Source: Anaerohalosphaeraceae bacterium
Lineage (GTDB): Bacteria > Planctomycetota > Phycisphaerae > Sedimentisphaerales > Anaerohalosphaeraceae
Direction of reading: 5' to 3'
DNA: 64,000 bases
NCBI GenBank assembly: GCA_037479115.1
Contig: JBBFLK010000013.1
Coordinates: forward strand, 1 to 64,000
Shown here in pieces: positions 159 through 31,907 of this stretch. The stretch's first letter is position 1. Each line of letters begins with the position of its first letter. The notes beneath the pieces were generated by a model. That model was not told the DNA's origin, did no database searches, and worked only from the letters and a program-made list of their open reading frames with translations. The translations under genes were made by a program, and so were the position numbers.

Positions 159-3100
159 TTACTGATTGAGAAGATTCTGCAGCTCCTCCATTTGTTCTTT
201 ATCCAAAACCGGATTGCTCTGATTCCAGCGCCATACCTCCGCGGCCCACCTTGCGGCTTGCTGCTTTCCATTCATCGCCAAAAGCGTTTTGACCAGCCGA
301 TATCCGGTTTTTACCCGCTCCGGAGAATAAGGCGGCGCGTTTTTCAGGGACTGTTCAAAATCTTCCCGAGCTTTTGCCAACTGTCCCATTTCGAAAAAGA
401 TTTCGCCCCGGGTATCCAGCAAATCGGCATTTCGGGGTTGAATCATCAAACCCTTATCGGCCCACTGAAGCGCCTCCTGCAGCTGCTTATTCTGAGAAAA
501 CAGAATCCAGGCCAGGTTATTCATTGCCGCTGCACGGTCTGCTTCTTCCGTCAGACTGTTTTGCATCAGAAGGACGCGATAAAGTTGTTCTGCAGATTTA
601 TACTGCTGCCAATAATGATAGAGTTTCGCCTGAGACAGCATCAGCTGCGGATGATTGGGGTGGCGTTCCAGCAGTGAACGCAGGCATTCGGCGGCGGTTT
701 CGCGTCCCTTCGGGTCTTCCTCCAGCCCCAACTGAAGACAAATGCGGGCGGCGGCATCCAGGCATTTCGGAGAATAACCTGAATACTTTTCAAGCAGCTC
801 CTGCACTGCCGACCGCTGCTGGTCTCTGAGCAAAAGCGCTGCCCAGCGATGGAAAACGCCGCTGGGCTCCGAATTCTCTTTCATTTCATTCTCGAACAGC
901 TGCCAGGCCTGCTCTTTGCGACCGGTTTGATACAGAAGATGCAGATAAAGAATCCGGAAGGCGGGATTCCCTTTTTCCCGTATCTCTCTGCGGGATTCCA
1001 AAACGCTTTCAGCCTCCTGAAAACGTTCGGTTCGAATGCACAGTTCCGCATACAAGGCCGCCACTCGTTCCTCGTTCGGAAACCGCTTATACAAATCCTG
1101 CAGAGTCGGCAGGGCCAAATGTCCGCCTCGCATCGCCTCCAGACGGGCTTTCTGCAGCAGAAGAGTGCTGCTTTCCGGGAAGAATTCCAGCCCCTTCAGA
1201 AGGCTGTCCAGAGCCCGGCCGGTCTGTCCGTTTCGCATGTACCATTCTGCCAGGGCAGCCCATCCTGCCTCGATTCGCGGGTAGTCATTCAGCAGACTGT
1301 GCAGAATTCTCTCGCCTTCATCCGCTGCGGCGGTTGTGTTTTCCGACAAGAGCATCTGGGCCTTCAGCAGCAGGACGGAAGGATCCTTCGGTTCTGCCGC
1401 CAGATATTTTTCGATGAGGGCTTCGAGGGCCTTTCGGCGCTGAGGAGCCCGGGCATAGATCAAGACGGCTTTGCGAAGAACCGCCGGGTCCTCCGGATAC
1501 AGGCGAAGGGCTTCTTCCATCGTCTCGACAGCGGCATCCGTCCGATTCAGATTCACAAGCAAATCTGCGGCAAGCAGAAAACTGTCCCGGGACGATTCCG
1601 AAAGGCGCAGCATGGTTTTGATATCCTCCTGCGCTTGTTCCGTCAGACCGATTTGAGTCCGAACCATCGCCCGCAATGCATACAAACGGGGCTCAGAGGG
1701 CTTGACCGTCAGGGCCTCATCGCAAATCTGAACGGCCTGGTCGGTTTCTTTTCGGCGCATCGCCAGTTCCACACGGGCCGCGATAACCGGCAGCGAATGG
1801 GGTTGGGCTTCCTGAAGCGAACGAAGAATCTCTTCGGCCTCCGAAAGCTGATTTTGATAAAGATGCATCAAAGCCAGCGATAATTTGAGATTCTGGTCGT
1901 TGGGGTTTTTCGCAATCATGTCCTGAAGAATTTCCGCGGCGTTCCCGAACCGGCCCTGCTGAAGAAGCCGCTGAACCTCCAAATGCGTCAGCCGCGGGTC
2001 CCGCAGCCCCCGTCGGGCCGCCTGCTGAAGCACTATCTCCGCCGCTCGATATTCCTGAGCTCGATACATAGCCGACACGGCCGAAACAATCAATTCGAGG
2101 TTATCCATGTCTTTGGCAAGGGCGTTTTGATATTCCTGGACGGCCAGCGCCAGATTGCCGGAGGCCTCATAAACAGAAGCCAGCAGGATTCGGCTGTCTA
2201 TGTCTTCCGGATAACTGCGGAGCACGGCATTCAGAAGCGAAACAATTTGCGGATAATCCCGCCGAATCTGACCTCGCTCAAAGAGCAGTCGGGCCTGTTC
2301 ATACCGCCACTGCCGTCCCTGTTCCCCTTCTGCGTTTTTGATTTCTTCAATCCATTTGCGGAGCTGCTCCGGCTCTGCCGTTCGGCGTGTCCATTCGAGC
2401 AAACGCCGGCGAAGCGAAATGTCGGCCGGATACTGTTTGGCCAAATCGGCAAGAACCGCCGCCGCTTCCTGGACCTGCCCTTTCAGGAAGAGCACTTCCG
2501 CCCGCCAGACAGCCAAAACTTTTCGCTGTTCGGGGGAGAAGGGTTCCGGAGAGACAGCATCCAGAAATGCTGCCGCCTGTTCAAATTCGCTGGTTTGGAC
2601 AGCAGAAACGACCCATTTTTGAATCGGCTCGAGCGAAGCTGGATAGTCCCGGCGGAGCTCTTCCAAAATCTGCCGAGCCGGCCCGTGGTGCCCCTGCCTG
2701 CGCAAAAGGTCGCTTTCCAGAAGTCGAACCCGGAGTGTCTGGCCTTCCTGTTTCTTCAGATTCTCCAATTGTGTTTGAGCCTCCTCCAGCCGACCTGTTT
2801 CAGTCCAGAAACTGATTTGCTCTGCCAGGAAAGAAGGGTCTCGGCGGGCCAGTTCCTGACTTTCCTGAATCAGCCGGGCCTGCTCAGCCTGATTCGGCGG
2901 GTTCTGTGATGTCTGCATCTGCCGAAGCCGAACGGTCAGCCAAATTCTGCGATAGTCCTGATTGTCCGGCTGTTTGCGCAAAGCCCTCTGGATATGGTCA
3001 GCCGCTTCGGCCAATCGTCCTTCCTTCAGAGACCACCGCGCCAGCAGAGCATGGGCTTCCGCATGTTCGGGAAAACGCAGAAGAAGCCCGCGAAGCTGCT

Positions 3101-4316
3101 GGACAGCCGCCAAGGGGTCTCCCGCTTCCATGAGGGCCTGTGCCAGACGCATCGAGGCATCCGGCGAGGCGGAAGCCGCCGACAATTTTCGCCAAATCGC
3201 CAAAGCAGTCGGCCAATCCCCCTTGGTTTGTGCCAGAAGCCCCTGCAGATACGCAACGGTCTCCGGTTCTTCCTTTCGTTCGGTCATCAGCCGGATGATG
3301 CTTTCCGCCTGGTCCCAGCGGCGTGCCTGAATGAAAAGTTCCGCCGCAGTTACCAGAAAATCATAGGAATCCGGCTGTAGCGCCGCTATGCCCTCCTGGG
3401 CCACCCGAACCATTTCGTCCGTGCGGCCGCTCCGTACGGCCCATTGTGCCCACAAAAGCCAGACCGTCAGGTCATCGGACTGTTCCGACTGCAAGCTGGT
3501 CAACAGCCGCTCTGTTTCCTCCAGCCGTCCGGCTGTCAGACATACAGAAGCCAGCTGCAGTTTTTGCGGACGGGTTTGGAATGGAAGAGTTTTCGCCTTT
3601 TCAATATCGGCCTGAGCTTCATCCGCCTGCTGGTTTTGAAGATGATACTGAGCCCGATACAGATAAGCCGACGGCTCGTTTGAATTAGCCTCCACGGCAG
3701 CATTCAGCCATTCCAGCGGGGTTTTGTCGGATAAGTCCGGGTTTTGCTGGCTCAAACGGGCCATAAGCAGGTAAGCCTGCAGACAGTCTGGATGCCGCTC
3801 CAGAATCTGCTGGAGTCTTTGCCGAGCGGGAATCATTTGGCCTCGCTGCATCATAGCCTGTGCGGCATAACAAGCAATTTCGGGATGGTCCTGCCGCTCC
3901 AGAAAGGCCTCGGCCAGCCGCTGGGCCTCTGCGGGGTCGGTCCGGACATAAAATTCAATCAGCCGGCGGGATACATCCGGGTTGTCCCCCAGACGAAGAA
4001 TCTGATGATAAGCCCGCAGGGCCTGCTCGATGTATCCCTTCGTCAGAGGACGGCGATTCATCTGGGCCTCTGCGTATTTGATCAGGATTGCCGTATCCTG
4101 TTTGGGCTGAATCGCCGCCAGATACTGCCCGAGATAGACGGCTGCCGCATCCCAGTCTTTTTTCTCAAAGGCCGCCAGACCCCGCTCCAGACCCCGATGA
4201 GCCCGCAGGTGTTTGTTCCAATACCACAATCCGCCCACGGTCAGCGTACCGGCTGCCAGGGCAAAGAGCACGACGACCAAAAACGCCCAGTTGATTCGAC
4301 CGAATCTGTATTGCAT
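159..4316 (-). CDS. Large membrane-anchored TPR-repeat protein of the exopolysaccharide locus
   Basis: The 1385-residue product has a short basic N-terminus and one membrane segment at about residues 10-32. The rest is almost entirely helical tetratricopeptide-like repeats, seen as recurrent pairs such as PDASMRLAQALMEAGD and PDNQDYRRIW, with many A, L, E and Q residues. It therefore likely sits on the outer face of the inner membrane as a scaffold. Exosortase/EPS loci in other bacteria often end with a large TPR lipoprotein or membrane protein (the PrsT type); membership in that group is inferred from context. The ATG at 4316 has a good upstream AGAAGGGAG. It lies 36 bases after the sugar transferase and is the last gene of the minus-strand run. 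No enzymatic motif is visible. Confidence 0.85.
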   Translation of the reverse strand: MQYRFGRINWAFLVVVLFALAAGTLTVGGLWYWNKHLRAHRGLERGLAAFEKKDWDAAAVYLGQYLAAIQPKQDTAILIKYAEAQMNRRPLTKGYIEQALRAYHQILRLGDNPDVSRRLIEFYVRTDPAEAQRLAEAFLERQDHPEIACYAAQAMMQRGQMIPARQRLQQILERHPDCLQAYLLMARLSQQNPDLSDKTPLEWLNAAVEANSNEPSAYLYRAQYHLQNQQADEAQADIEKAKTLPFQTRPQKLQLASVCLTAGRLEETERLLTSLQSEQSDDLTVWLLWAQWAVRSGRTDEMVRVAQEGIAALQPDSYDFLVTAAELFIQARRWDQAESIIRLMTERKEEPETVAYLQGLLAQTKGDWPTALAIWRKLSAASASPDASMRLAQALMEAGDPLAAVQQLRGLLLRFPEHAEAHALLARWSLKEGRLAEAADHIQRALRKQPDNQDYRRIWLTVRLRQMQTSQNPPNQAEQARLIQESQELARRDPSFLAEQISFWTETGRLEEAQTQLENLKKQEGQTLRVRLLESDLLRRQGHHGPARQILEELRRDYPASLEPIQKWVVSAVQTSEFEQAAAFLDAVSPEPFSPEQRKVLAVWRAEVLFLKGQVQEAAAVLADLAKQYPADISLRRRLLEWTRRTAEPEQLRKWIEEIKNAEGEQGRQWRYEQARLLFERGQIRRDYPQIVSLLNAVLRSYPEDIDSRILLASVYEASGNLALAVQEYQNALAKDMDNLELIVSAVSAMYRAQEYRAAEIVLQQAARRGLRDPRLTHLEVQRLLQQGRFGNAAEILQDMIAKNPNDQNLKLSLALMHLYQNQLSEAEEILRSLQEAQPHSLPVIAARVELAMRRKETDQAVQICDEALTVKPSEPRLYALRAMVRTQIGLTEQAQEDIKTMLRLSESSRDSFLLAADLLVNLNRTDAAVETMEEALRLYPEDPAVLRKAVLIYARAPQRRKALEALIEKYLAAEPKDPSVLLLKAQMLLSENTTAAADEGERILHSLLNDYPRIEAGWAALAEWYMRNGQTGRALDSLLKGLEFFPESSTLLLQKARLEAMRGGHLALPTLQDLYKRFPNEERVAALYAELCIRTERFQEAESVLESRREIREKGNPAFRILYLHLLYQTGRKEQAWQLFENEMKENSEPSGVFHRWAALLLRDQQRSAVQELLEKYSGYSPKCLDAAARICLQLGLEEDPKGRETAAECLRSLLERHPNHPQLMLSQAKLYHYWQQYKSAEQLYRVLLMQNSLTEEADRAAAMNNLAWILFSQNKQLQEALQWADKGLMIQPRNADLLDTRGEIFFEMGQLAKAREDFEQSLKNAPPYSPERVKTGYRLVKTLLAMNGKQQAARWAAEVWRWNQSNPVLDKEQMEELQNLLNQ

Positions 4317-4352: not shown

Positions 4353-5951
4353 TTATCCAAACTGGTCCAAAAAAGAAAGAATCAGCTTGCGTGCGGTCAA
4401 CAGACAAATCTTCAGGTCCATGCCCAGCGACAATTTCCGGACATATTCCATATCATAGTAAATCCATTCCTGAAAATCGCGGCCCGGCCGACGGGTTCGG
4501 CTGACCTGCCAGAGGCCGGTAATTCCCGGGCGAACGGAAAGACGAGCCTGACGCCACGGAGGGCAATATTCATTTTCATTTTCCGGAGAAGGGCGCGGCC
4601 CCGCCACACTCATTTGGCCGAGCAGAACATTTAAAAACTGCGGCAGTTCATCGATGCATGTATCCCGCAGAAATTTGCCGATGGGGCTGGTTCGCGGGTC
4701 ATCGTCCATCTTAAACTGCGGACCGTCCACCTGATTGACCATACGAAGTTGGTCCTGAAGGGACTCGGCTCCGACAATCATCGTCCGAAACTTCAGACAG
4801 GAAAACTCTCTGCCGTGCAGGCCCTGACGGCGTGCCCGGAAAAAGACAGGGCCCGGCGAGGTCAGTTTGACCGCCAGCGCAATCAGCGGAAAAAACGGCA
4901 AAAATAATCCCAGCACGAGAAGAGAAATCAGGATATCCACCAGGCGTTTGCCGAAACGCGGATACGAAAGGAGCGGCCATTCCCGAAATGCTTTTTCAGA
5001 ACGGCTCCAACCATCGGAACAGAAATTCAGACGGGTCTTCCATTCCTGGTGCGGCTGGCGCCACCATGCGACGTGGTGAACAGGCTTTCCGGGGGGCACA
5101 CAAACCGACGGCCCCAGCAGGACTCCCTGAAGAACGGCGCCGTCGCCGACCTCTGCCCGGTCACAGAGGATTGCCGGAGCCGCAATCACAGCCCCCTGCC
5201 CCAAACGGACCTCTCTGCCGATATGAATGATTCCTTTGAGGGTCGTCCTTCCCGAACCATCTGCCTTTGCTGCGGATTCCGAACGGCAGGTTTGGCTGAA
5301 TCGAAGCAGGGCTGCTAATCCGGTTGTGGAAAAAAGATCGAACCGCCTGCCGCCGATACGAAGCCGGAGGATTCGGCCGCCGACTGATTCGGCATATTCC
5401 GCAAAAGAAGCCGTCGGTTTTCTGAGCAAAGCACTTAAAAGTTTCTCGAATTTTTCGGCCCTGCAGCAGAAGAAATCCGGCCAGTCCGCTGAGGGAAAAT
5501 CCGGTTCGTATACGGGCTGATAGGAGCGGCGGAAACCGACGATGCGACCGTCTCTTGTCAGACGAACCTGCTCCCGGCCGGCATCCAGTGAAGGGTCGAT
5601 GCGGAAAACCGCTATATCACAATCCAGAGAACAAAGAACCGCCTCAAGATTTGCTCTGTCCACCTTCGACAGGACGGCTCCGTTCGCAAGAATCACCCAC
5701 TCGGTTTTGGGTACGGAAAGATGAGCCGAGCCGCTGATCCCTTCGGGAGGATAAAAAAAGACCTCTTTATCCCGCTCCAGGTCCTGGGTTCTGGCGGATT
5801 CCGGCAGCCAAAATCGGCAGGGTTTCTGCAGAGCACCGGCCTTCAGCATATCCAGCAGAAGCCGATTGGCCGGATACGCCGTTAGCAGCTGCGGCCCCAA
5901 AGAGGCGGATGAACCGCAAAAATGTTCAGACCCAAACCAGAAAACCTGCAT
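4353..5951 (-). CDS. Polyprenyl-phosphate sugar-1-phosphate transferase with N-terminal nucleotidyltransferase/beta-helix-like domain
   Basis: The 532-residue product has two parts. Residues 335-532 form a bacterial sugar transferase (WcaJ/WbaP/PglC type): one membrane segment at about 337-362 after KRLVDILIS, then LKFRTM, the catalytic IDELPQ (Asp434-Glu435), MSVAGPRP and RPGITGLWQVS. Such enzymes transfer a sugar phosphate from an NDP-sugar to undecaprenyl phosphate and so prime exopolysaccharide repeat units. Residues 1-300 do not look like the usual multi-TM N-terminus. They resemble a degenerate sugar nucleotidyltransferase followed by hexapeptide-type beta-helix turns (IIHIGREVRLGQGAVI). 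The same architecture precedes the exosortase two genes upstream. The ATG follows AGAGGGGAG. It lies 23 bases downstream of the Wzc-like gene. Confidence 0.92.
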   Translation of the reverse strand: MQVFWFGSEHFCGSSASLGPQLLTAYPANRLLLDMLKAGALQKPCRFWLPESARTQDLERDKEVFFYPPEGISGSAHLSVPKTEWVILANGAVLSKVDRANLEAVLCSLDCDIAVFRIDPSLDAGREQVRLTRDGRIVGFRRSYQPVYEPDFPSADWPDFFCCRAEKFEKLLSALLRKPTASFAEYAESVGGRILRLRIGGRRFDLFSTTGLAALLRFSQTCRSESAAKADGSGRTTLKGIIHIGREVRLGQGAVIAAPAILCDRAEVGDGAVLQGVLLGPSVCVPPGKPVHHVAWWRQPHQEWKTRLNFCSDGWSRSEKAFREWPLLSYPRFGKRLVDILISLLVLGLFLPFFPLIALAVKLTSPGPVFFRARRQGLHGREFSCLKFRTMIVGAESLQDQLRMVNQVDGPQFKMDDDPRTSPIGKFLRDTCIDELPQFLNVLLGQMSVAGPRPSPENENEYCPPWRQARLSVRPGITGLWQVSRTRRPGRDFQEWIYYDMEYVRKLSLGMDLKICLLTARKLILSFLDQFG

Positions 5952-5974: not shown

Positions 5975-8245
5975 TCAGGACAGCTGATTCGGATTCGGAG
6001 GAAACGTCTGCGTATCCGAGGACTCCTGCGAAGCCGTCAAAAACAGGTCGGGGTTTTTCTTGCGGTGCTTTCGGCCCTTCTGACCGTAGGCGTATCCGTA
6101 TCCGTAGGAGCGGTAGCCCTGCTCGGCTTTCACATTATTGACAACCGTTCCGATGACCTTGGCCCCCACCTGCCGCAGTCTGGACAAGGCCTCCTGGATA
6201 TCCGGCTGCGAGGTCCGTCCCAAAAACGTAGTCAGAATGACGGCATCGGCATACCGAGACAGCACCAGTGCATCCGCAAAAGCCAGAACCGGCGGGGAAT
6301 CAATCAAAATAACATCGAAAGAATCCCGCAGGGTACGGAGCCGTTCGCCGCTTTGCGGATGAGCCAGCAAGTCCAGCGCATCCGCACTATTGCGAAAATC
6401 AGACGCAAGAATAAAAAAGTTGGGGTTGGAATGCCGGTACAAACATTCTTCCAGTCGTTTGCCGAACAGATAATCCTGAAATCCGCGAAGGGCACGGGGC
6501 AGATTCAGCACTTCCACCACGTCCGGTTTACGCAAATCCGCATCAATCAGGAGTGTTTTTTTGCCGGAGTTGGCAAAGGAAGCCGCCAGATTGACACAAA
6601 ACGTCGTCTTGCCGTCCTGCACGCCCGGGCTGGTCACCAGAATTATTTTGGAACCATTCGAGCCGTCCAAAAGTCCCAGATTGGCCCGAATTGTCTGATA
6701 ATCGTCATTCAGCTGCTGGCCCAAAAGATTTCGCTGAATGGAATGCGGGTCGGTCGTTGTGCCCAAAATCCTCACCTGTATCCGCTTGACGACCTCCTGA
6801 GGATGGTGAATCCGCCGGTCCAGCCGGTCGATAAGCAGAGCCGTCAGCAGGCCGAACAGAAGCCCTCCAAAGCCCACAGCGGCCGCCATTTTCTTTCGTT
6901 TGCCCGGAGCGGAAACACTAAAGGCCTCATCGGCGACGGAAATTCGGGCCGGCCGTTTGCTCTCAATCATCAGCTCTTTGATTTTGCGGTCGACCTCCTG
7001 CATCTGCTCTTTGCTTTGCTGAATCTGTTCCTTCAGGTCCTCAATCAGCAGCTGTTTGCGGCCGATTCGGATCGTCTCGGCATCCTGCTGCTGCAGTTTT
7101 TCCTGAAGATGCTGCATCAGAGAAGCCAACTGAGAACGCTGCGTTTTCAGCTGAGCCAGCTGCAGCTGCCGGCCGCTCGTGCGGCGCTCCTCAAAGGCCG
7201 CGTTGAACTCATCCAGCACTTCCTGCTGCCGCTTTTCATAACGGTTTTTGAGGGTTTCAAAGACCTGCTCCTGCTGAACCAGAACCGGATTGTTCGGCTG
7301 CATCGTCTGACGGCTGACCAGAAGGGTTTGTTCATACCGGCGAATGTCCTCCTGAAGTGCCCGCAGAATCGGGTCGTTCTGGACAATCTGAGAGCGCTGC
7401 TGGACGAAATCCGACGGCAGGGCTTCCTGGCCGCCCTGTTCGGCCGCCTGAATCTGGGCCTCCAGGGCCAGCAGCTGAATTTCCGTATTGGTCAGCTCTC
7501 TCTGGAGACTGGCCAGCCGTTCGTAATGCATCTGCTGGAGAGCCGTCAATTCCCCGGTTCCGTATTCTTCCACCAGCTGACGGATGGTTTCCTGCTGGGC
7601 TTCAAGTTTCTGCGTCAGCTGCTTTCGCTCGTTTTGGAGGTTATTCAGACGCGTATTTTCTCGATCCCGCAGGTCTTCGACCACCACTGCCATATAATTG
7701 CGGAGAATTAAGTTAATCAGCGTTCGAGCTTCTTCCGCCTGTGCGGCCGGAGTAGTCATGCTTAGGGTAATCAGATAGGACCCCCGGTCCGGTTCAATCT
7801 CAATAATCCCCTGCTCAAACATCTGCCGAAGGCCCGTGTAGGTGTCTCCTTTCTGATTAAAGAAAGAAAGATTGAGATTTTGGGCTTCTTCGGCAACCCG
7901 TCGGATGACTTTATCGCTGCTCATCAGCATGGCCTGGGTGTTCTTGAAGCCTTCATAGTTGGGCAGCGGCTGGTCGGAGTCGCGATCACGATATATAATC
8001 TCCGGAATAATGGGGGCCACCTCTACCAGCGCCGTTGTGCGGTACTGCTTGGGCATCAGAAAAAAGACCGCCGGAAAGCCGATCCCCCAGACCAGCGCCG
8101 TCAGCAAAACAATCACCCACCATCGCCGCCGGAGCAACCCCCAAAGATCAATCTCTGTGTGCGGCTGCTCCTGCGACGGCTGCGGGCGATATTCGACCAG
8201 TTCTGCCGTCGGGGCACCGTTTTCTGTAATGTCCGAATTGTCCAT
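5975..8245 (-). CDS. Wzc-like polysaccharide co-polymerase with BY-type tyrosine autokinase
   Basis: The 756-residue inner-membrane protein controls chain length and export of exopolysaccharide. An N-terminal Wzz domain has a membrane segment at about 42-64. A long periplasmic coiled-coil part follows (about 190-430, rich in Q, E, L and R). A second membrane segment lies at about 454-472, then a cytoplasmic kinase. Kinase motifs are Walker A SPGVQDGKTT (539-548), Walker A' TLLIDADLRKP (564-574) and Walker B DVILIDSPP (644-652). The tail has a tyrosine cluster YRSYGYGYAYG (711-721), the usual site of inter-subunit autophosphorylation. The ATG follows TTGGAGG. It is placed between the exosortase and the priming transferase. 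No cognate low-molecular-weight phosphatase is seen in the window. Confidence 0.95.
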   Translation of the reverse strand: MDNSDITENGAPTAELVEYRPQPSQEQPHTEIDLWGLLRRRWWVIVLLTALVWGIGFPAVFFLMPKQYRTTALVEVAPIIPEIIYRDRDSDQPLPNYEGFKNTQAMLMSSDKVIRRVAEEAQNLNLSFFNQKGDTYTGLRQMFEQGIIEIEPDRGSYLITLSMTTPAAQAEEARTLINLILRNYMAVVVEDLRDRENTRLNNLQNERKQLTQKLEAQQETIRQLVEEYGTGELTALQQMHYERLASLQRELTNTEIQLLALEAQIQAAEQGGQEALPSDFVQQRSQIVQNDPILRALQEDIRRYEQTLLVSRQTMQPNNPVLVQQEQVFETLKNRYEKRQQEVLDEFNAAFEERRTSGRQLQLAQLKTQRSQLASLMQHLQEKLQQQDAETIRIGRKQLLIEDLKEQIQQSKEQMQEVDRKIKELMIESKRPARISVADEAFSVSAPGKRKKMAAAVGFGGLLFGLLTALLIDRLDRRIHHPQEVVKRIQVRILGTTTDPHSIQRNLLGQQLNDDYQTIRANLGLLDGSNGSKIILVTSPGVQDGKTTFCVNLAASFANSGKKTLLIDADLRKPDVVEVLNLPRALRGFQDYLFGKRLEECLYRHSNPNFFILASDFRNSADALDLLAHPQSGERLRTLRDSFDVILIDSPPVLAFADALVLSRYADAVILTTFLGRTSQPDIQEALSRLRQVGAKVIGTVVNNVKAEQGYRSYGYGYAYGQKGRKHRKKNPDLFLTASQESSDTQTFPPNPNQLS

Positions 8246-8262: not shown

Positions 8263-10230
8263 TTAAATCGAGGTTTTCTGTCGGAAAACGATCTGGGAAA
8301 TCGTCTTTTCCGACGAATCGATAAACAATTTTGACAGAAACCGCAACTCCAGGACCGTCAAAAGTAACGCCAGCGGCATCATGGCCAGCCCACCGTAATC
8401 ATGGAATATCTTTTCCCATATTTGCCCATCCAGAAACAAAAAGGCAATTGACGTCAGGACCAGACGGATGGTGTTGCATATTAATGCTATCGGCACACTC
8501 GAAACAAAGATTACAACCTTTTGCCAAAGGGGGCATTTGCATATCAAAACAACAAAACCGCTTACAACGAAAAAGGCCGTCAGCATTCGCAGACCATTGC
8601 AGGCCTCCGCTACCGCAACAAGCGTACCATTAATATTAATAATATTTCCTTCTCGAATCACATTAAAACCTAATGCTTCCAGGCAGAAAACAGCGGAAAC
8701 AGTGGCCCATTTCTGCAAAGGCGGTGTAATCGTCCATTCCACAGATTTGGGCAGAGGAAACATCAAATACAGATACATCCAGACCGGCAATATCTTCTTA
8801 AAGCATTGCCCCCCTAAAATCAACCACACCAGACCGCCGATGGTTAACAGAAAACACAGACGCTCAAGACTTGCGGACCCAATCAAAAGGGCTCCGAATC
8901 GGAGGAGCTGAACGAACAAAAGAGCCCAAAAAGCCGGCGGATATGGACGTATCGGACAGTCCAGAAGGACTTTTCTGCGGTCCCAAATCACATACCCGGC
9001 CAAAAGCGGCACGAGAATACCGCTGGAGTATTCATCGCTGAGCATCCAAACCTGCCAAAGGTCTATCAGGGTTGGATTCCAGTAGACAGCCAGCAAAACA
9101 ATCAGGAGAATTCCCAGTGCCCCAAAAGCACCAATTTTTTTCCCGGGCTGAGCCAGGTACGATGACAAAGACGAAACCTGTGCGAGGCTTTGACGCTGTA
9201 CCAGCCGTCTTCGAAGCTTCCTTGTAAAAGAGGAGGACTTGCCCCTGGAGGGGACAAAGAGTCGCTCAGAACCTTCAGTGCCGGACGCAAGCACCGTTCC
9301 TGTGTCCGTCATACAGCAATCGAGATGACAGCGGGCCCCGACAGTGGTTCCGGCCCCAAGAACAGAAGAGCTGATTACTGAATGGGGCCCTATCCACCCA
9401 TCAGACTCGACCATCAGGGGCCCCAAAAGAATACAGCCCTCTTTGACAACACAGTTGTTTCCAATGAATACCGGTCCGGCCGTACGAACAGTCGGATGGA
9501 TTTGGACATTCTGTCCTGCCCACAATCCGTTGACAGCAGTCCGGGAAAATCCTGCAAGCCCGCTTCCGTTTTCGTCCAGCGAGAGCAAGTGACGTCCCAC
9601 GGCCTCTGCATATTCTATCCACGTCCGATAGGTCTCGGTGGGTTTCTTGAGAACCCCGCAAGCGACGGAAAGCCCTTCCTTCACAAGAGCGGGCACCAGG
9701 TTCTCTTTTAAATCAAAATATCCTTCCAAAGGAATCCAGCGGATGATATCGGAACCGCAGACATAAACTTCTGCATCTTTGGGAACCGCTTCGGATTCAT
9801 CTGTCGGCTGGAAAAAGACGGTCAGACTCCCCTGTTTGTTTTGATGTTCCCCAAGGACGTCTTGAAGCGGCGGAGGGACCAGCATCGCCCCGTTAAAAAC
9901 CAAAAGGATGGTTTCAGGAGATTCTGCAGCCAGTGCATCTCGAATATTTCCGGCAGTACCTCGCGGGAGCGTCTCAAAACGCAAATGAACATTGACTCTA
10001 TCCGGAAAAACCAATGACTCAAGGAGGGGGCGATTCCTTTCAGAACTGCAGATTTCAACGCGATGCAAGCCCTGTTCGGCCAGATTTTCCACGAGGCGCA
10101 AAAGGACCGGCTTGCCCCCAAAAGACCAGAAGGCATGGTGCAGCCGGCTGGCCAGCGGGCATCGGCCGAAATCCGGTTCACCAACCAAAATCAGGGCTTT
10201 GCAGTCTTTTAAAGAAACACTGGAAGACAT
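8263..10230 (-). CDS. xrt: Exosortase fused to an N-terminal nucleotidyltransferase/beta-helix-like domain
   Basis: The C-terminal half (about 365-655) is a multi-spanning exosortase, the transpeptidase-like enzyme that processes PEP-CTERM-type sorting signals. The proposed catalytic residues are present: Cys544 in EACNGLR, Arg589 in CNTIRL and His610 in FHDYGG. Stand-alone exosortases are usually about 280-320 residues, and this one has about 350 extra residues in front. Residues 13-220 look like an NTP-sugar transferase fold (ALILVGEPDFG, GKPVLLRLVENL). Residues about 245-310 show hexapeptide-like beta-helix turns (VFIGNNCVVKEGCILLG). The signature lysines and GG of an active nucleotidyltransferase are not convincing, so this part may bind rather than catalyse. 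The gene starts 3 bases after the epimerase stop. No PEP-CTERM substrate is encoded in the window. Confidence 0.93.
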   Translation of the reverse strand: MSSSVSLKDCKALILVGEPDFGRCPLASRLHHAFWSFGGKPVLLRLVENLAEQGLHRVEICSSERNRPLLESLVFPDRVNVHLRFETLPRGTAGNIRDALAAESPETILLVFNGAMLVPPPLQDVLGEHQNKQGSLTVFFQPTDESEAVPKDAEVYVCGSDIIRWIPLEGYFDLKENLVPALVKEGLSVACGVLKKPTETYRTWIEYAEAVGRHLLSLDENGSGLAGFSRTAVNGLWAGQNVQIHPTVRTAGPVFIGNNCVVKEGCILLGPLMVESDGWIGPHSVISSSVLGAGTTVGARCHLDCCMTDTGTVLASGTEGSERLFVPSRGKSSSFTRKLRRRLVQRQSLAQVSSLSSYLAQPGKKIGAFGALGILLIVLLAVYWNPTLIDLWQVWMLSDEYSSGILVPLLAGYVIWDRRKVLLDCPIRPYPPAFWALLFVQLLRFGALLIGSASLERLCFLLTIGGLVWLILGGQCFKKILPVWMYLYLMFPLPKSVEWTITPPLQKWATVSAVFCLEALGFNVIREGNIININGTLVAVAEACNGLRMLTAFFVVSGFVVLICKCPLWQKVVIFVSSVPIALICNTIRLVLTSIAFLFLDGQIWEKIFHDYGGLAMMPLALLLTVLELRFLSKLFIDSSEKTISQIVFRQKTSI

Positions 10231-10233: not shown

Positions 10234-11229
10234 CTATCTTTCAGCAGACGGAAGCTGTTTTTTCATATCCTCAATAATCAAAGAAAGCGTCTGCTCTAAC
10301 GTATAAGTCGGCTGAAAATGGATAACCTGACGAATCCGCTCCAGACAGGGTACTCGACGGACCATATCATCAAAGGGGCGTCCGAAGACTTGTTCAAAAT
10401 CGCGGTAAACCTTTCGGCTGCGGCTTTGCGTCATCGCAATAATACGGTCGGCAAGATTGTCGATACTGATTTCTTCATTGGAACCGAGATTAAAGACCTG
10501 TCCGCAGGCCTCCGGACAATTTATCAGGTCCTGCAGGGCCCGGACGACATCAAACACACAGCAAAAGCATCGCGTTTGTTTTCCGCTGCCGTAGATTTCC
10601 AGCGGTTCATTCCGCAAAGCCCTCTCCACAAAACGGGGAATCACCATTCCGTACTGCCCTGTCTGACGGGGGCCGACGGTATTAAACAGCCGTACAATAA
10701 TCACCGGCAAATCGTACTGCTGATAATAGGCCAATCCGAGGAATTCATCGATCGCTTTGCTGCATGCATATGACCAGCGGCTGAACCGTGTGCTGCCCAG
10801 AACGGTATCATCATCCTCCCGAAAAGGAATGGCTTCACTCTTGCCGTACACCTCGCTGGTGGAAGCCAAAAGGACCTTTTTGTGGAACCGGTTAGCCGCC
10901 GCCAGGACCACTTCGGTGCCGTGGATGTTGGTTTCGATGGTATGAACTGGACGCTCGACAATCAGCCGAACGCCGACAGCCGCCGCCAGATGCACGATAA
11001 CGTCGCAGGATTCCACCAGCTGATTCATCAGGCTTTCATTGCGAACGGAGTCAAAAACAAACCGGAAATGCGGATTTTTCAGGAGATGCTGAATATTGCC
11101 AAGACGCCCGGTGCTTAAATCATCAATCACGGTAACCGTATATCCGCCCTTCAAAAGCGACTCCGCCAGATGAGAGCCGATGAACCCCGCACCGCCGGTG
11201 ATTAAGACTTTCATCGTTTGCCGTTCCAT
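10234..11229 (-). CDS. NAD-dependent NDP-sugar epimerase/decarboxylase (extended SDR)
   Basis: The 331-residue product has the Rossmann motif GGAGFIGSHLAE, IDDLSTGR, an STSEVYG serine/threonine strand and the YACSK catalytic Tyr/Lys. These are hallmarks of the extended short-chain dehydrogenases that act on nucleotide sugars. DDLSTGRLGNI and GPRQTGQYGMVIPRFV point to the UDP-glucuronate decarboxylase / UDP-glucose epimerase branch. The exact substrate cannot be read from sequence. It likely supplies a sugar nucleotide to the surrounding glycosyltransferases in the cytoplasm. Two starts are possible: ATG at 11229 (preceded by AGGACACAGGT) or ATG at 11214, which gives the canonical MKVLITGG beginning. 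Confidence 0.93.
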   Translation of the reverse strand: MERQTMKVLITGGAGFIGSHLAESLLKGGYTVTVIDDLSTGRLGNIQHLLKNPHFRFVFDSVRNESLMNQLVESCDVIVHLAAAVGVRLIVERPVHTIETNIHGTEVVLAAANRFHKKVLLASTSEVYGKSEAIPFREDDDTVLGSTRFSRWSYACSKAIDEFLGLAYYQQYDLPVIIVRLFNTVGPRQTGQYGMVIPRFVERALRNEPLEIYGSGKQTRCFCCVFDVVRALQDLINCPEACGQVFNLGSNEEISIDNLADRIIAMTQSRSRKVYRDFEQVFGRPFDDMVRRVPCLERIRQVIHFQPTYTLEQTLSLIIEDMKKQLPSAER

Positions 11230-11444: not shown

Positions 11445-13508
11445 CTAATCCCCTATCCAAAGCCAGTTTGAGCTGAACAGGGCAAAATCTCTCTGATTGA
11501 TAAGGCCGTCTCCCCCGGTCGGTGCCGTATCACAGGATGCATTCCAGCGGCTATCCTCTCTCACCGACAGCCACGCATCTGTAAACAACACGAAATCTTT
11601 TATATTGACGGAGCAGTCTTTTGAAAAATCGCAGGGATTGGCCTGGGTACAGAAACGCTGCATCCAAAAGCCGCTCAATAGGGAAAAGTCCATCTGGTTG
11701 ATCTGCCCATCTCCGCCGGGCGGAGCAATATCGCAGGCAAAATCCCACCCGGGTGTTCCGGGAACAGAGCCCCAGGCCGAGGTCATTCGCAGAAGGTCCA
11801 ACAAGTCAACAATGCAGTCCTGATTCAAATCCGCCGGAAGAGCGGTACATGGAGGGGAAGGATAAACAGCCGTATGGATGCACAGCAATTCGATGCCCGG
11901 TCCGGTGCCTAAATTGCGGGAATACCGCTTATCAAGCGGATTGTTCCAATGCTCATGAACTCCGAGACTGCCCAGGCGGGTTCCGTCCCCTTCCGGGTCA
12001 TAAAAAACTCCCGACGGGGGATTGTCCGCCAAAGCGGCTTCGTGCAGATAACTGTCGATGGGGATATCAGGCAGATTGAACTGAGCCGCCAGAAAATCCA
12101 GCGCGACCGAATCCAGCGCAACCGGGTCCTGGGAGACCAGCAGGCTCGAGGGATAATCTCCATTAAAAGGAGGAATGGCGTATGGAGCCGGAAGCCCTAT
12201 GTGGTTGTATTCAAATCCCCAGAGGGCATCGAGGATATACAGGACCGTTTTCTGTCCCAAATGTCTATGTCCCATTAAATCCACAAGGGGGCTGTAGCCG
12301 GCATAGGAAGGCTCCGTCACAAGCGAATGAAGGGCATTGCCGGAATGAATGGTGCTGTCATATTCCGGGCTGACGCCGAAACAGCCGTACCAGTTTTTGG
12401 CACACAGCGTAACCCCTGCGAAGGCATGTCCCTGCATCCGAGCCAGATTAATAACATAGTCCGCCTCAAAAAAAGAACGGGCCAGAGGATAATCGGCGAT
12501 GGGCTGGCCGGTGTGCGGATTGTTGGAAGACCAGACAATCTGCCCCGGAACAGGGTCGGCCTTCGTGCGACCTTCCGTGCCGGGATTGTTTTCGGGCTTA
12601 AAATAATTGGTCTCCTCGAACCGAACCTGAGGAAATAACGAAACACAGGCATTGTAGGTTTTGTCATCGATATAACGCGACGGCTCACTGATTGTAATGC
12701 AGGACGGGTCCACCCCTGCCTGATAAACCAGCTGCTTGAGCAAGGCTGTGTAAACCGCCGGAGGAGTATCCGGAAAATTGTAGCGGCTCTGATGCGACCA
12801 CTGATTGTTGTGATTGGGCTTGATAACGATTCGCTCTCCCGGAGAATAGCCTATATTTCCCTTTCCCCGTTTGCTGTTGTGATAGCGAAACAAAGCATCC
12901 CAGGCACTGCGGTCATCCTGTTTTCCGGTCAGCCAGCAAATGGCCCTGGACAGCATCGATTCAACGACAGCCGGATTGGTATGCTGATCGTCCCACCAGA
13001 CATAACCGACGCCGTCCCAGGTTGTGGCGTTGGGGTCGTGGACCCACACAACCCGGCCGGGAAAGAGTCCTTCGGCTGTTCCTATCGGCTGATTGGGGCC
13101 GTCCACCGCTACAAAAGCCGCCTGATTGGATTGCGGGTCCACCCCCAAGGTCAGAAACACAATTAGTCCGGCCAATCCAACCAGTAGCCCCCCTTCCAGC
13201 CAGTGATGATGCTGCAAAAAACGTCCGGCAGAGACCCATTTGGCCCACGCGGCCAGCATCCCTGCTACATACAGCACAAACGACGAAGCCAGCGGGAAGG
13301 CGGCCCGCTGACAGGGATAGGCCGCTCGGCTGGGTTTCGGGATAACGCGAATGAGAAACCAAATCAGCGCAAGAAAACCCGAAATAAAAAAGGCCAGGGA
13401 AAGAATGGACTTCCGACAGCGAAGGAAAAATCGAAAACAAAAATATCGAACTCGATTTTTTTTCAAATCGAACAATTTTCTTCCCCTCACAATTTCTAAA
13501 CTTCCCAT
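11445..13508 (-). CDS. Membrane-anchored DUF362 protein with C-terminal dockerin-type repeats
   Basis: The roughly 687-residue product has three hydrophobic segments near the N-terminus (around SILSLAFFISGFLALIWF, ASSFVLYVAGMLAAW and GGLLVGLAGLIVFLTLGV). A DUF362-like domain follows (IVIKPNHN, VINLARMQGHAFAGVTLCAKNWYG, DPVALDSVALDFLAAQF), a family of unknown function often tied to metal or cofactor chemistry. The last about 130 residues hold four EF-hand-like half repeats of dockerin type: DLNQDCIVDLLDLL, GGDGQINQMDFSLL, DFSKDCSVNIKDFV and GGDGLINQRDFALF. These should bind calcium and may dock to a cohesin partner; no cohesin is seen in this window. The start is uncertain: ATG at 13508 is chosen, TTG at 13520 is possible, and neither has a good ribosome site. 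The 140 bases upstream are very AT-rich and probably carry its promoter. Confidence 0.85.
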   Translation of the reverse strand: MGSLEIVRGRKLFDLKKNRVRYFCFRFFLRCRKSILSLAFFISGFLALIWFLIRVIPKPSRAAYPCQRAAFPLASSFVLYVAGMLAAWAKWVSAGRFLQHHHWLEGGLLVGLAGLIVFLTLGVDPQSNQAAFVAVDGPNQPIGTAEGLFPGRVVWVHDPNATTWDGVGYVWWDDQHTNPAVVESMLSRAICWLTGKQDDRSAWDALFRYHNSKRGKGNIGYSPGERIVIKPNHNNQWSHQSRYNFPDTPPAVYTALLKQLVYQAGVDPSCITISEPSRYIDDKTYNACVSLFPQVRFEETNYFKPENNPGTEGRTKADPVPGQIVWSSNNPHTGQPIADYPLARSFFEADYVINLARMQGHAFAGVTLCAKNWYGCFGVSPEYDSTIHSGNALHSLVTEPSYAGYSPLVDLMGHRHLGQKTVLYILDALWGFEYNHIGLPAPYAIPPFNGDYPSSLLVSQDPVALDSVALDFLAAQFNLPDIPIDSYLHEAALADNPPSGVFYDPEGDGTRLGSLGVHEHWNNPLDKRYSRNLGTGPGIELLCIHTAVYPSPPCTALPADLNQDCIVDLLDLLRMTSAWGSVPGTPGWDFACDIAPPGGDGQINQMDFSLLSGFWMQRFCTQANPCDFSKDCSVNIKDFVLFTDAWLSVREDSRWNASCDTAPTGGDGLINQRDFALFSSNWLWIGD

Positions 13509-13646
13509 TTTACCAGTCAATGGTCGTGAATAAAAGTGAATAATTCGACTTGGCTGGGCTTGTCATGAGAATGTTTTTCAGTGCTTCTAATGTTCGATAT
13601 TAGAATATTTTATATAATACAGATATTATAGATACCTATTGTCTCT

Positions 13647-29100: not shown

Positions 29101-29363
29101 ACCGCCGGCTGGCCTTTCAGGTCCAGGCCGCCGATGAAAATGGAAACAAGGTTCCCTATCGGGCTTCCAATCTCCCGAGCGGTGCTGTCTTTGACCCGAA
29201 AACACAGACATTTACCTGGAGGCCCTGGTACCGGCAGGCCGGTGAATACAACATCGAGTTCAATGCCGACGGCCTGCCCTCTGAAACGGTAACAGTCACC
29301 GTTCAGGAAGTCCAACTGCAGAACTGGTATCAGACCCTGCTGGAAAGCGCTGGTCTGCTGTAA
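26151..29363 (+). CDS. Large secreted protein: unknown alpha-rich N-domain, InlB-type repeat, two LamG domains, Ig-like domain
   Basis: The 1070-residue product has a Sec signal peptide (MKTLITRNRHLFIFVLPMLLTLNSQAAVG). Residues about 30-490 form an unknown domain rich in Trp, Tyr and helices, with some feel of an alpha/alpha-toroid carbohydrate enzyme (WLTAYRETGCTFVGAALVCRIM), but no catalytic motif was recognised. About 495-565 is a divergent InlB-type repeat (GETVTLTAVPASGYLFSGWSG). About 570-760 and 765-960 are LamG/concanavalin-like domains (LSAWVKLRG, WYHIVGTYNGSQIALYLNG, LSEVRVYSG). About 970-1050 is a He_PIG-type Ig-like domain (NLPSGAVFDPKTQTFTW). No C-terminal anchor is present. It is followed after 45 bases by a second LamG gene, with which it is likely co-transcribed. 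Confidence 0.88.
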   Translation: MKTLITRNRHLFIFVLPMLLTLNSQAAVGTNWIEQWGITWTFDKPISTNGAPGTYRYGTYANGDYWIVGPVTIISITPLSQEINGRTKNGSMINPVPGPNQGYDSAMADWAEKSYSAALNVGLNVGAGATLTVQPNSSLVSTISHDAVRVPQIRTAAVLTVVQTPPPAGAFRPPYCGTNKTSLYTVSNLDYSKLARLTPVPGAPTLATAETWFQKVWLDHKGTWTGRYLHPSDNMPDYGRDLAHQTTAAALILNLNYTNAQKETLLIRYVQLGIDLYGILKAGGSKLWINDGGHMSGRKLPILFAGTVLNNDTEMKAIGAKSGQYLYTAPYGPGNPPADYIHFGEDDQVFYVSQADVNATNSPSWSPDSRDAERIPYSAADIGLPEWGIVHATNPYKSNKYWLTAYRETGCTFVGAALVCRIMNIKDAWNHPAFFDYTDRYMDVIKTGGPYAYLQTESGAGPNAVGTFVVNMWNAYRADYGPIWPATGQPAAYTLTISAANGTVSVSPNKASYTSGETVTLTAVPASGYLFSGWSGDASGSANPLVLTMNGNKTVQAAFTPSAISLAAHWKLAETDGTTAFDSIGSYHGTLRNGPVWTDTEGLSFNNNNEYVEIPDSPVFSMNSPMTLSAWVKLRGYDNDWPKVLIKPHTAYADPWELYAIDLGENGNMVRFLVSDGTAGGRFAIAADGSTTLNLNEWYHIVGTYNGSQIALYLNGRLLASAAVNFPIGTNSMPLCLGGRMGTNTLNGWLSEVRVYSGALSAEQIQELYAEGRPRSAPAVMTGLWLLDDYGTESTADVIGKRQAVLVGRPKWGRSWAEEDYLLFENRNQALQIPSETFTPQAGTISLWLAPSSESGAQYLLGHTFNSGNRIALLTINGKLAVSLGDTPLLRQNIATLENSRMAHVVLTWNEGQYAVYLNGQQRAEGTYSGLSQLRSTFDVGNYGDPALRIVGFLGLIDEVRTYNTALTENEVRRLYQTYLVKENRRLAFQVQAADENGNKVPYRASNLPSGAVFDPKTQTFTWRPWYRQAGEYNIEFNADGLPSETVTVTVQEVQLQNWYQTLLESAGLL

Positions 29364-29408: not shown

Positions 29409-31220
29409 ATGAGAGTGATGAGTCTTTTGCTCCTCAGTTCGAATCTTATCGGACTGTCGGCAGCCTATGTCTGTCTTCCTTTTGACGGCTGTACCTGGGG
29501 GTTTTCCCCGAACGCTTTATCCATCGAACCCGGCTTCGTCCTCACTGACGCGGTGCTGACACTGACCAATGTTCGTCCTGTCAACAACTGTCTGAATCCT
29601 CTTTTGTCGGTTCGCCTTCTGGAAAACCCGGCTCAGGGATTCCTTGTTCAGACCGACCAGTCGCAGCCGAGTCAAACCTGCCTGCCGAATGCTCCCGCTC
29701 TCACGGCCGCGTGGCGGATGAACGAATACACAGGGACACAGGCGAACAATTCCTTTGCAGGCGGCAGTCCGGCGATATTTATCAACAATCCAGTGTGGGT
29801 CGAAGGTGAGGGGGTCTCTTTTTCGGGCAGTCAATATCTTCAAATCGATGACTCGGTGAATCTGTGCAGCCGAATGAATCTGGCAGTATCCCTCTGGTTT
29901 AAAATCCGCTCGCCTCGTCCCTACGGCAAACTGTTTATCAAGCCGTATGAAACCCGCTCTGACCCCTGGGAGCTGGCGGCCCTTGATTTGGGAGCAGACG
30001 GTCTGACACCTCGCTTTCTGCTCTCTGACGGCATCCCCGGCGGCCAGGATGCGGTCGCTTCTGCTGAAACGCATAAAATTCTCCTCAATCAATGGTATCA
30101 TCTGCTGGGCACATTTGACGGAAGCCGGATTCAACTATGGCTGAACGGCAGCTGCATTGCTCAAAGCCCGGCCGATTTGACCATCGGCACCAATTCGATG
30201 CCCATCTGCATCGGCGGCCGACTGGGGCTGGATACGATTGACGGCATCATTCGAGATGTACGAATCTACAGCGGTCTGCCGACCAATCAGCCCCTGATAT
30301 GGCTGTCCCCCTCCGATTTCTTCTCACCCCACGGGACTCTTCTGAAAACCTTCGATGCATCCGATATAAAGACAAACCGTCAGACATTGTCCTTTTCCCT
30401 TCAGCAAATTGATTCGCCGGATTCCTGGGTGTACACAATCTACCCGAGGCCTTTTGCTCTGGGGGCACCTTTGCGGACAATTCCAGTGCCCTTTTCTTCC
30501 GCCATGCTCGAATTGCTTGACACCGCCGGCAGAACCGAAAACTGGGGCATCGGAATCGATGCAGATGGTTTTTATTTCGACACGCTCACGCTGGTTCTGA
30601 CAATCGAGCCCCTTGACGGCTCCCAGGCTCCGACATACCAGACATTTACCTATCGAAACATCCGGGCCCCGCTCATTCTTGCTCCTACTCTGATAACGGC
30701 TGAACCCCGCCAGCCGATTCTTTTCACCCTGACGGTGTTAGAACTGGACGGAAATCCCTATACGGTTTCCGTTCAGAATTTGCCCGCGGGTGCTGTCTTC
30801 GACAACGGCACATTCCGATGGACGCCCGCAGACAACCAGCTCGGCGACTGGGCCGTGGTTTTTACGGCAACCGATGGAGTAATGAGCAGCCAGCGTGCAG
30901 TGGTCATCAAAATTAAAGAACCGACACCGATTTTTACGCCGCTTGAAAATCAGACTGTCTATGAACTTCAGACCTTGACGCTTCCCGTCCAGGCTGTCAA
31001 TCTGGCAGGACAGCCGGTCCCGATTACAGCCAATAACCTTCCAGTCGGTGCTGTATTTGATGGGAACGTGCTGGAATGGAAGCCGGCTTATGGGCAGGCA
31101 GGGACCTACACTGTTTCCTTTACGGCCTCCAATGAAATCCGACAGGAAACCATAACGGTTACCCTGACCGTCCTGCCCTATAAGCCTCCGGCGAAACCTA
31201 AAACCATTTTAATTCTTTGA
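29409..31220 (+). CDS. Secreted LamG protein with two He_PIG Ig-like domains
   Basis: The 603-residue product has a signal peptide (MRVMSLLLLSSNLIGLSAAYVC). A short Cys-containing segment is followed by a LamG domain at about 95-290 (LAVSLWFKIRS, WYHLLGTFDGSRIQLWLNG, IRDVRIYSG). A middle region of unknown fold comes next, then two Ig-like modules at about 420-500 and 505-590 (NLPAGAVFDNGTFRWTP and NLPVGAVFDGNVLEWKP). The LamG domain is clearly paralogous to that of the gene before it, sharing DPWEL, LSDG and IGTNSMP stretches. It ends with Pro/Lys-rich residues and has no PEP-CTERM or membrane anchor. GGAG lies nine bases before the ATG. Its 3' end overlaps the convergent EpsI gene by 12 bases. 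Confidence 0.85.
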   Translation: MRVMSLLLLSSNLIGLSAAYVCLPFDGCTWGFSPNALSIEPGFVLTDAVLTLTNVRPVNNCLNPLLSVRLLENPAQGFLVQTDQSQPSQTCLPNAPALTAAWRMNEYTGTQANNSFAGGSPAIFINNPVWVEGEGVSFSGSQYLQIDDSVNLCSRMNLAVSLWFKIRSPRPYGKLFIKPYETRSDPWELAALDLGADGLTPRFLLSDGIPGGQDAVASAETHKILLNQWYHLLGTFDGSRIQLWLNGSCIAQSPADLTIGTNSMPICIGGRLGLDTIDGIIRDVRIYSGLPTNQPLIWLSPSDFFSPHGTLLKTFDASDIKTNRQTLSFSLQQIDSPDSWVYTIYPRPFALGAPLRTIPVPFSSAMLELLDTAGRTENWGIGIDADGFYFDTLTLVLTIEPLDGSQAPTYQTFTYRNIRAPLILAPTLITAEPRQPILFTLTVLELDGNPYTVSVQNLPAGAVFDNGTFRWTPADNQLGDWAVVFTATDGVMSSQRAVVIKIKEPTPIFTPLENQTVYELQTLTLPVQAVNLAGQPVPITANNLPVGAVFDGNVLEWKPAYGQAGTYTVSFTASNEIRQETITVTLTVLPYKPPAKPKTILIL

Positions 31221-31907
31221 GGAAGTCTGGGCCGACGGCATATAGGTCTCAATGAGTGGTGCCGCAAGAGCCGCAAACGACAAAGCGGATGTTGTGGAGG
31301 TAGAGACAACCTGAATCTGGGCAACATATCGGATTTGCTCCCGGGAAAAAGACGGGAAACGCCAGCGAAGCCCCGAAAAAACGCGATGATCATTTGTGGC
31401 CTGCCCATTGATTAAATAATAATTCAGGACAATTAACCGCGTCAAATCCGGCAGCGGCTTGCGAAACGTGTGGAGCAAAACCGGAATGACTTCTCCCTCC
31501 GCGGTCTGAATCTGCCTTTCTTCTATCTGTTCGAGATTCCAGCCGGCTCCGACATAACAGCGGTCCGGCCGATGCCCGAGCATCAAACGAGGCTGGCTTG
31601 TATAAGCAATATAAAAGTTTACAAAAGATTCCGTGCCTGGAATTCGATATACCCGATGGACATAATCGTCATTTCCGGCAACCTCCAACACTGTCTCGCT
31701 GAGCGGCTCGTCCTCCCCTTCCCACTTCTCAATTCGATAGGGAAATGTCGAAAGAGGAGCTGACGGCAGAAGCGGATCTTGTGCCAACGCATTCAAACGA
31801 ATTGCCGCCTGTCGGTAGCCCAGCCCAGTAACCGCCAATAGCAGACACGCCGCCGACATCCAGCCCAAAAAATTCAGTTGCAGCTTCATACCGAATTGTT
31901 CGGTCAT
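31209..31907 (-). CDS. epsI: Exosortase-associated EpsI-family protein
   Basis: The 232-residue product has an N-terminal membrane segment (FLGWMSAACLLLAVTGLGY) and a periplasmic domain with FPYRIEKWEGEDEPL, DDYVHRVYR, VNFYIAYTSQPRLMLGHRPDRCYVGAGW and RLIVLNYYLINGQ. The CY-GAGW stretch with the preceding HxPxRC is diagnostic of EpsI, a family found next to or fused to exosortases and needed for EPS or sorting in known systems. Here it is 21 kb away from the exosortase. Start choice: ATG at 31907, with an in-frame ATG six codons later possible. It is divergent from the acyl carrier protein gene. Confidence 0.9.
   Translation of the reverse strand: MTEQFGMKLQLNFLGWMSAACLLLAVTGLGYRQAAIRLNALAQDPLLPSAPLSTFPYRIEKWEGEDEPLSETVLEVAGNDDYVHRVYRIPGTESFVNFYIAYTSQPRLMLGHRPDRCYVGAGWNLEQIEERQIQTAEGEVIPVLLHTFRKPLPDLTRLIVLNYYLINGQATNDHRVFSGLRWRFPSFSREQIRYVAQIQVVSTSTTSALSFAALAAPLIETYMPSAQTSSKN

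Follow-up and report, generated by a model that had tools for sequence, protein, structure and literature searches.

The window analysed in this study is the whole stretch of 64,000 nucleotides from contig JBBFLK010000013.1 (assembly GCA_037479115.1) of an Anaerohalosphaeraceae bacterium. It contains a gene of 655 codons (8263-10230, minus strand), which is one unbroken open reading frame from ATG to stop and which encodes an exosortase that is preceded by a putative pseudo-nucleotidyltransferase and a left-handed beta-helix. The genes for a Wzc-type kinase, an initiating sugar transferase and a PrsT-like TPR protein adjoin it, and the fusion sits in a polysaccharide locus. The features are as follows:

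8263..10230, minus strand: pseudo-nucleotidyltransferase/beta-helix/exosortase fusion, 655 aa (single ORF, Pfam, model)
9547..10230, minus strand: pseudo-nucleotidyltransferase domain, approximately residues 1-228 (PF00483, 8x7s profile match, predicted fold)
9265..9546, minus strand: left-handed beta-helix domain, approximately residues 229-322 (Hexapep PF00132, strand pattern in the model)
8344..9105, minus strand: exosortase domain, residues 376-629 (PF09721, E 3.1e-50; TIGR02602 above cut-off)
8599..8601, minus strand: codon of the catalytic Cys544 (alignment A1)
8464..8466, minus strand: codon of Arg589 (alignment A1)
8401..8403, minus strand: codon of His610 (alignment A1)
5975..8245, minus strand: Wzz/Wzc-type polysaccharide co-polymerase with a tyrosine autokinase domain, 756 aa (PF02706, PF13614; TIGR01007 above cut-off; conserved neighbour)
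4353..5951, minus strand: initiating sugar (phosphoglycosyl) transferase with its own N-terminal pseudo-nucleotidyltransferase/beta-helix, 532 aa (PF02397, model, Foldseek, VIA-align)
5052..5951, minus strand: second pseudo-nucleotidyltransferase/beta-helix module, residues 1-300 of the sugar transferase (profile comparison, predicted fold)
4383..4949, minus strand: catalytic domain of the sugar transferase, residues 335-523 (PF02397, E 3.1e-58)
159..4316, minus strand: PrsT-like TPR protein, 1385 aa, the fourth gene of the cassette (TIGR02917, 290.5 bits, below the cut-off of 312.2; conserved neighbour)
10234..11229, minus strand: NAD-dependent sugar-nucleotide epimerase/dehydratase, just upstream of the fusion and not constant in the cassette
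31209..31907, minus strand: EpsI-like protein (exosortase partner) encoded by a separate gene, 232 aa (TIGR02914, 45.2 bits, cut-off 42.8)

The C-terminal part of the fusion protein is an exosortase. The Pfam model Exosortase_EpsH (PF09721) matched residues 376-629 with 171.4 bits against a cut-off of 25.7, and the generic exosortase model TIGR02602 was passed with 118.7 bits against 105.55; the scores for the named subclasses XrtA (129.5 vs 208 bits) and XrtD (135.1 vs 400) fell below the cut-offs. The complete triad of Cys544, Arg589 and His610 is found in the membrane domain exactly where the first-pass annotation had placed it, and it was kept in all 21 of the 24 rows of alignment A1 that include the exosortase domain. 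The model of the whole protein had a mean pLDDT of 84.9 and a pTM of 0.55, and its membrane part is of the 8TM type. In the window protein, the linker that precedes the first membrane helix has 11 Lys or Arg and one Asp or Glu in 50 residues, and a linker rich in Lys and Arg was present in most of the 18 rows printed, the exceptions being the last two, in which the linker is short. This linker, together with the lack of an apparent signal peptide, suggests that the N-terminus of the fusion protein is cytosolic. The genome that contains the window has 36 matches to the PEP-CTERM model TIGR02595, and all 40 relatives that were searched also match it, with the fusion present or absent, so the PEP-CTERM content was discarded as an uninformative marker of the fusion exosortase. 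Because of these matches, and because the genome has a second, plain exosortase, the PEP-CTERM substrates are not assignable to the fusion exosortase. The plain exosortase (locus L055, 9075-10070) is followed by a 271-aa gene, and its locus also contains a large TPR-matching protein, a kinase and an epimerase.

Several other genes of the window were recorded. Beside the cassette lies a gene for a 691-aa protein with a DUF362 domain and a match to type I dockerin (11445-13520, minus strand). Two long and probably secreted proteins of the polysaccharide/exosortase region, one with a TafC-like match (26151-29363, plus strand) and one with a weak tandem-95 match (29409-31220, plus strand), showed no PEP-CTERM-like tail. 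In the region 31209-36895, the EpsI-like gene is followed, on the opposite strand, by genes for an acyl carrier protein, an amidotransferase similar to that of the XrtA system, an exosortase-A-type acyl-CoA ligase and an NAD synthase.

The N-terminal module was assigned by sequence and by its predicted structure. NTP_transferase (PF00483) matched residues 24-146 of the fusion protein (E 1e-5, 25.7 bits vs a cut-off of 21.2), and the best stretch for Hexapep (PF00132) was 238-267 (E 2.5e-6, 27.4 bits vs 27). When a profile built from 19 homologues of the module was compared with the PDB, positions 9-314 matched the UTP-glucose-1-phosphate uridylyltransferase 8x7s with an E-value of 1.5e-32, followed by mannose-1-phosphate guanylyltransferases and eIF2B. 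The predicted structure of residues 3-336 could be superposed on an eIF2B chain (Z 29.6, rmsd 3.5 A, 326 residues) and on 7d73_F from the GMPPA/GMPPB complex (Z 29.4, rmsd 2.8 A, 310 residues), with which Foldseek agreed. Residues 1-330 are thus predicted to fold as a sugar nucleotidyltransferase with a left-handed beta-helix of the GDP-mannose pyrophosphorylase/eIF2B type, which are the folds that the first-pass annotation had named.

Both domains precede the exosortase in a single protein, and this is not peculiar to the window. A pattern scan of 84,980 species genomes returned 78 loci, several of them two per genome, of which 66 have the module and the exosortase in one frame, ten have the module alone and two are cut by contig ends. 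In-frame start codons do occur around the domain junction (GTG313, TTG355, TTG379 and ATG396), and the purine stretches AGGA, four bases ahead of GTG313, and AGG, eight bases ahead of TTG355, mean that the window sequence alone does not exclude an internal start. These stretches, as well as one relative in which adjacent separate genes encode the two parts (L042), are what could be said for a sequencing or assembly error that fused two genes; since homologues at the 66 loci in public records carry the same fusion in frame, and a whole-genome search found it in full in 17 of the 40 relatives and without the beta-helix in an eighteenth, we rejected such an artefact, to which we give practically no credence.

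To characterise the module, 84 sequences (70 exosortase-fused, 12 alone and two sugar-transferase-fused) were aligned with 8x7s, and the nucleobase and active-site contacts of Arabidopsis VTC1 were taken from the available text of PMC9168903. The residues required for catalysis have been lost in nearly the entire family. The Arg of GxGTR (VTC1 Arg13) was kept in three of the 84 modules, the Lys of PKP (VTC1 Lys23) in two, the Asp of GD (VTC1 Asp111) in one and the Asp of WxDIG (VTC1 Asp219) in none, and the positions of the EKP sugar-binding segment were gapped in 82. In place of GxGTR, the exosortase-fused rows have a DFGRC loop (D in 66, F in 67, G in 62, R in 63 and C in 62 of the 70). Other contacts persist: the nucleobase-contact position is acidic in 80 of the 84 modules (E86 in the window; the residue is named Asp80 in the text of PMC9168903 and is a Glu by count on the chain used here), the nucleobase-contacting Gly is kept in all 84 (G91), as is the Lys that matches the active-site Lys196 of VTC1 (K175). 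The 8x7s enzyme has a Gly in the K175 column, so this position is no general mark of binding. A comparison with a 90% identical relative gave a dN of 0.066, a dS of 0.380 and a dN/dS of about 0.17 for codons 1-330, and 0.039, 0.342 and about 0.11 for the rest of the gene, and the module is, by these codon comparisons, under purifying selection.

Judged by its sequence, the nucleotidyltransferase module therefore looks catalytically dead, and the description of it as degenerate in the first-pass annotation holds for almost all of the 84 rows. The accompanying view that it is a sugar-nucleotide-binding domain found no support in that form, as the family lacks the EKP segment and has not retained the pyrophosphate loop, the catalytic Lys or the two catalytic Asp; the retained nucleobase-contact positions and the one active-site Lys leave room for nucleotide binding without sugar transfer. 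Both domains match families that contain enzymes, which would speak for an active nucleotidyltransferase, or an acyltransferase that acts via the beta-helix, having been fused to the exosortase. This reading was rejected as very improbable since the motifs of active sugar-1-phosphate nucleotidyltransferases (GxGTR, PKP, GD, EKP and WxDIG) are lost across the 84-row family and since there is no conserved His in the beta-helix among the 40 most conserved module positions, to which it contributes G252, P253, G270, P271, E275, S289 and G292.

A second module, which the first-pass annotation had overlooked, is carried by the sugar transferase that is encoded two genes downstream of the fusion; no other protein of the genome matches PF02397 at E <= 1e-10. 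The profiles of the two modules matched each other with a probability of 99.2% and an E-value of 1.7e-19, mostly via the beta-helix, and a good sequence match of the second module to the PDB was likewise confined to its beta-helix part. As the sequence match is carried by the beta-helix, the nucleotidyltransferase half of this module rests on the predicted fold. The model of the sugar transferase is of moderate confidence (mean pLDDT 73.7); its residues 1-316 matched 7d72_A (GMPPA) and 8x7s_A with a Z of 14.4 and an rmsd of 5.5-6.3 A (6.3 A for 7d72_A), and Foldseek matched the model to nucleotidyltransferases with an E-value of about 2e-10. Residues 316-525 matched the structure of WbaP (8t53_A) with a Z of 12.7. 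In the Pfam search, only PF02397 and Hexapep were found in this protein at E <= 1, and the PF13727 DUF was absent. By sequence and model, the module of the sugar transferase is a related and more degenerate copy of the exosortase module.

The pseudoenzyme-exosortase, the Wzc-type kinase, the pseudoenzyme-sugar transferase and the TPR protein, usually in this order, form a conserved cassette. A sugar transferase that bears a beta-helix was found in 48 of the 49 fused loci that have more than 4.6 kb of downstream sequence, L085 being the exception, and in eight of the ten exosortase-free loci; the remaining two, L129 and L131, have just 0.9 and 2.6 kb of downstream sequence, respectively, and no kinase occurs in the 2.6 kb at L131. 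All 20 of the 40 relatives that have the exosortase-type module also have the sugar-transferase-type module. Three relatives (G005, G012 and G015), the cassettes of which are cut by contig ends, have the sugar-transferase-type module only, and 17 have neither. Across 294 genomes of the phylum, an exosortase was present in at least 108 and its fused form in eight. The sugar-transferase-type module was found in seven of the 294 genomes, all of which have the fused exosortase, and in the eighth genome with the fused form, the contig stops inside the kinase gene. The constant companion of the module is, in these genomes, the sugar transferase and not the exosortase. Such co-occurrence is weak evidence of contact because the members of one operon co-occur anyway. 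Distance correlation over 49 loci ranked the pair of modules first (partial r 0.46), a result that did not survive a repeat with ranks and sub-domains; the highest value for two different proteins was then that of the nucleotidyltransferase part with the kinase part (0.35).

The variants of the cassette are informative with regard to its history. A profile search of the 294 phylum genomes with the module gave 13 matches, i.e., the eight fused exosortases, three modules that are fused directly to a sugar transferase, one stand-alone module (L155) and one locus (L158) that was set aside as an ordinary CBS-nucleotidyltransferase with its motifs intact. The direct module-sugar transferase fusions, all from genomes outside the order of the window, are:

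L151, 5583-7679: module-sugar transferase fusion
L156, 9589-11472: module-sugar transferase fusion
L157, 1-1152: module-sugar transferase fusion, cut by the contig end

Among the matches listed, the module was found in none of the 20 loci of the phylum at which other long exosortases have long open frames. At L092, L093, L113, L117 and the L128 group, the module lies beside the kinase and the sugar transferase with no exosortase in the stretch that was examined. At L155, the module, the sugar transferase and a plain exosortase are separate genes of one cluster, an arrangement that may resemble the state before the fusion. A quick tree of the 84 modules was rooted at its midpoint; it leaves out modules shorter than 250 residues, two that contig ends truncate (L077 and L091), and also L049 and L053, which are the same genes as L117 and L113. 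The fused rows required five label changes on this tree, and its well-supported branches force at least three. L092, L093, L042 and L113 with L117 are nested among the fused rows, which points to the exosortase having been lost or split off there and the module retained, and the direction of these changes is inferred from the midpoint root. The L128 group, L131 and L155 fall outside the fused rows, together with the sugar-transferase-fused modules of L151 and L156. The fusion and either of the other states are not mutually exclusive.

Some individual loci deserve mention. Genome G023 has two cassettes, one with a fusion that lacks the beta-helix (L048, 791-2455) and one with a stand-alone module without an exosortase (L049, 7405-8550). 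In the split version in genome G011 (L042, 9013-10380), the nucleotidyltransferase part has an in-frame insertion of short repeats. On the distribution beyond Planctomycetota, the evidence is that of the pattern scan, in which the module turned up under the record titles Pelotomaculum (L063), Alphaproteobacteria (L128) and uncultured bacterium (L068), of which L063 and L128 are probably mis-binned contigs that carry planctomycete-type cassettes. At L068 (2-4154), a single 1384-aa frame on a 4.2-kb contig combines the module, the exosortase and the kinase, which is either a triple fusion or a sequencing error.

With the exosortases of the EpsH type (PF09721/TIGR02602), the window protein shares the domain match, the 8TM-type model and the Cys/Arg/His triad, as well as a location in a polysaccharide locus in which the EpsI-like and PrsT-like proteins have genes of their own. 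The association of exosortases with polysaccharide loci was described in PMC1569441, which in 2006 already recorded EpsH fused to EpsI, and four fusions to CAAX-protease-like domains. The window protein differs from the fusions in the accessible part of that article by its N-terminal pseudo-nucleotidyltransferase/beta-helix, and no fusion of an exosortase with a pseudo-nucleotidyltransferase is named in the titles and the first lines of the abstracts of the open-licence PMC literature. Exosortase fusions as such are known and, within these parts of the literature, this partner appears to be new. The predicted two-domain fold is shared over the whole module with GMPPA/GMPPB and with the epsilon and gamma subunits of eIF2B. 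According to the available portions of PMC11228364 and PMC9168903, GMPPA has no catalytic role and forms a pair with its paralogue, and the latter source attributes the subunit contacts of GMPase to the beta-helix. Unlike these proteins, the window module is fused to a membrane enzyme, has a DFGRC-type loop and lacks the EKP segment. The sugar transferase has the PF02397 catalytic domain of the large monotopic enzymes such as WbaP (TIGR03025) and matches 8t53_A. The four-helix bundle and the PF13727 DUF that the consulted part of PMC10942596 gives for WbaP were not found in the window protein, in which the pseudo-nucleotidyltransferase/beta-helix takes their place. The bifunctional monotopic sugar transferases (Bi-PGTs) covered in that part of the same article also have an extra domain N-terminal to the catalytic one; in contrast to theirs, the added domain of the window sugar transferase is apparently non-catalytic, and a protein-sorting enzyme carries its homologue.

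In light of these observations, the module is most likely a subunit without catalytic function, similar to GMPPA, that serves assembly or regulation and links protein anchoring with the initiation of the polysaccharide. It would primarily be part of the polysaccharide machine, its more degenerate relative being carried by the initiating sugar transferase. Both modules would assemble in the cytosol through their beta-helices, like the inactive GMPPA with the active GMPPB, and the fusion of one of them to the exosortase would recruit this enzyme to the place of polysaccharide initiation and length control, i.e., to the sugar transferase, the Wzc-type kinase and the PrsT-like TPR protein. The anchoring of surface proteins would in this way be linked to polysaccharide initiation by location, and perhaps by activity as well. 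We give this pairing via the beta-helices and the recruitment of the exosortase an even chance. The direct coupling of anchoring to polysaccharide that the first-pass annotation had suggested gains from a module that lies on or beside the sugar transferase, also where there is no exosortase; the coupling itself is our inference. A bolder version, which is possible but on the unlikely side, is that the two pseudoenzymes form a heteromeric cytosolic platform of the GMPPA/GMPPB or eIF2B kind, which would bind a nucleotide and act as a gate on the start of the polysaccharide as well as on the anchoring of surface proteins.

The dead pocket could also act as a sensor that binds a nucleotide or nucleotide-sugar and switches the exosortase, the sugar transferase or both, so that the supply of precursors gates anchoring. 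The conservation of the E86, G91 and K175 positions is consistent with this, as are the reports, in the available text of PMC11228364, that the non-catalytic paralogue GMPPA can bind GDP-mannose and, in that of PMC10942596, that WbaP dimerises through its N-terminal DUF, which has also been linked to the binding of uridine nucleotides. The loss of the phosphate-loop, Mg and sugar contacts and of the EKP segment weighs against it, the GTAG turn may persist for structural reasons and the Gly of 8x7s reduces the weight of K175, and we consider such a sensor rather unlikely. It is close to the idea of the first-pass annotation and compatible with the pairing of the modules, and the data do not tell a scaffold from a sensor.

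Oligomerisation is common among beta-helices, and the module might simply serve the folding, oligomerisation or localisation of the exosortase and have no functional connection with the polysaccharide. Its persistence beside the kinase and the sugar transferase at exosortase-free loci and the direct sugar-transferase fusions of L151 and L156 are not expected of a pure exosortase tag, and this explanation is improbable.

There is as yet no settled account of why protein sorting accompanies polysaccharide, and at this locus the putative link is written into two polypeptides. With a soluble, well-predicted domain on each enzyme, whether sorting and polysaccharide initiation are physically joined is open to a direct bench test. 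If the proposed role of the modules as a GMPPA-like subunit is true, they would be a bacterial case of paired dead nucleotidyltransferases that are used for control, alongside GMPPA and eIF2B. If the two also form a nucleotide-binding platform, planctomycetes with this cassette would have a hard-wired checkpoint of sugar supply, glycan initiation and protein sorting that is built from two dead copies of an enzyme fold.
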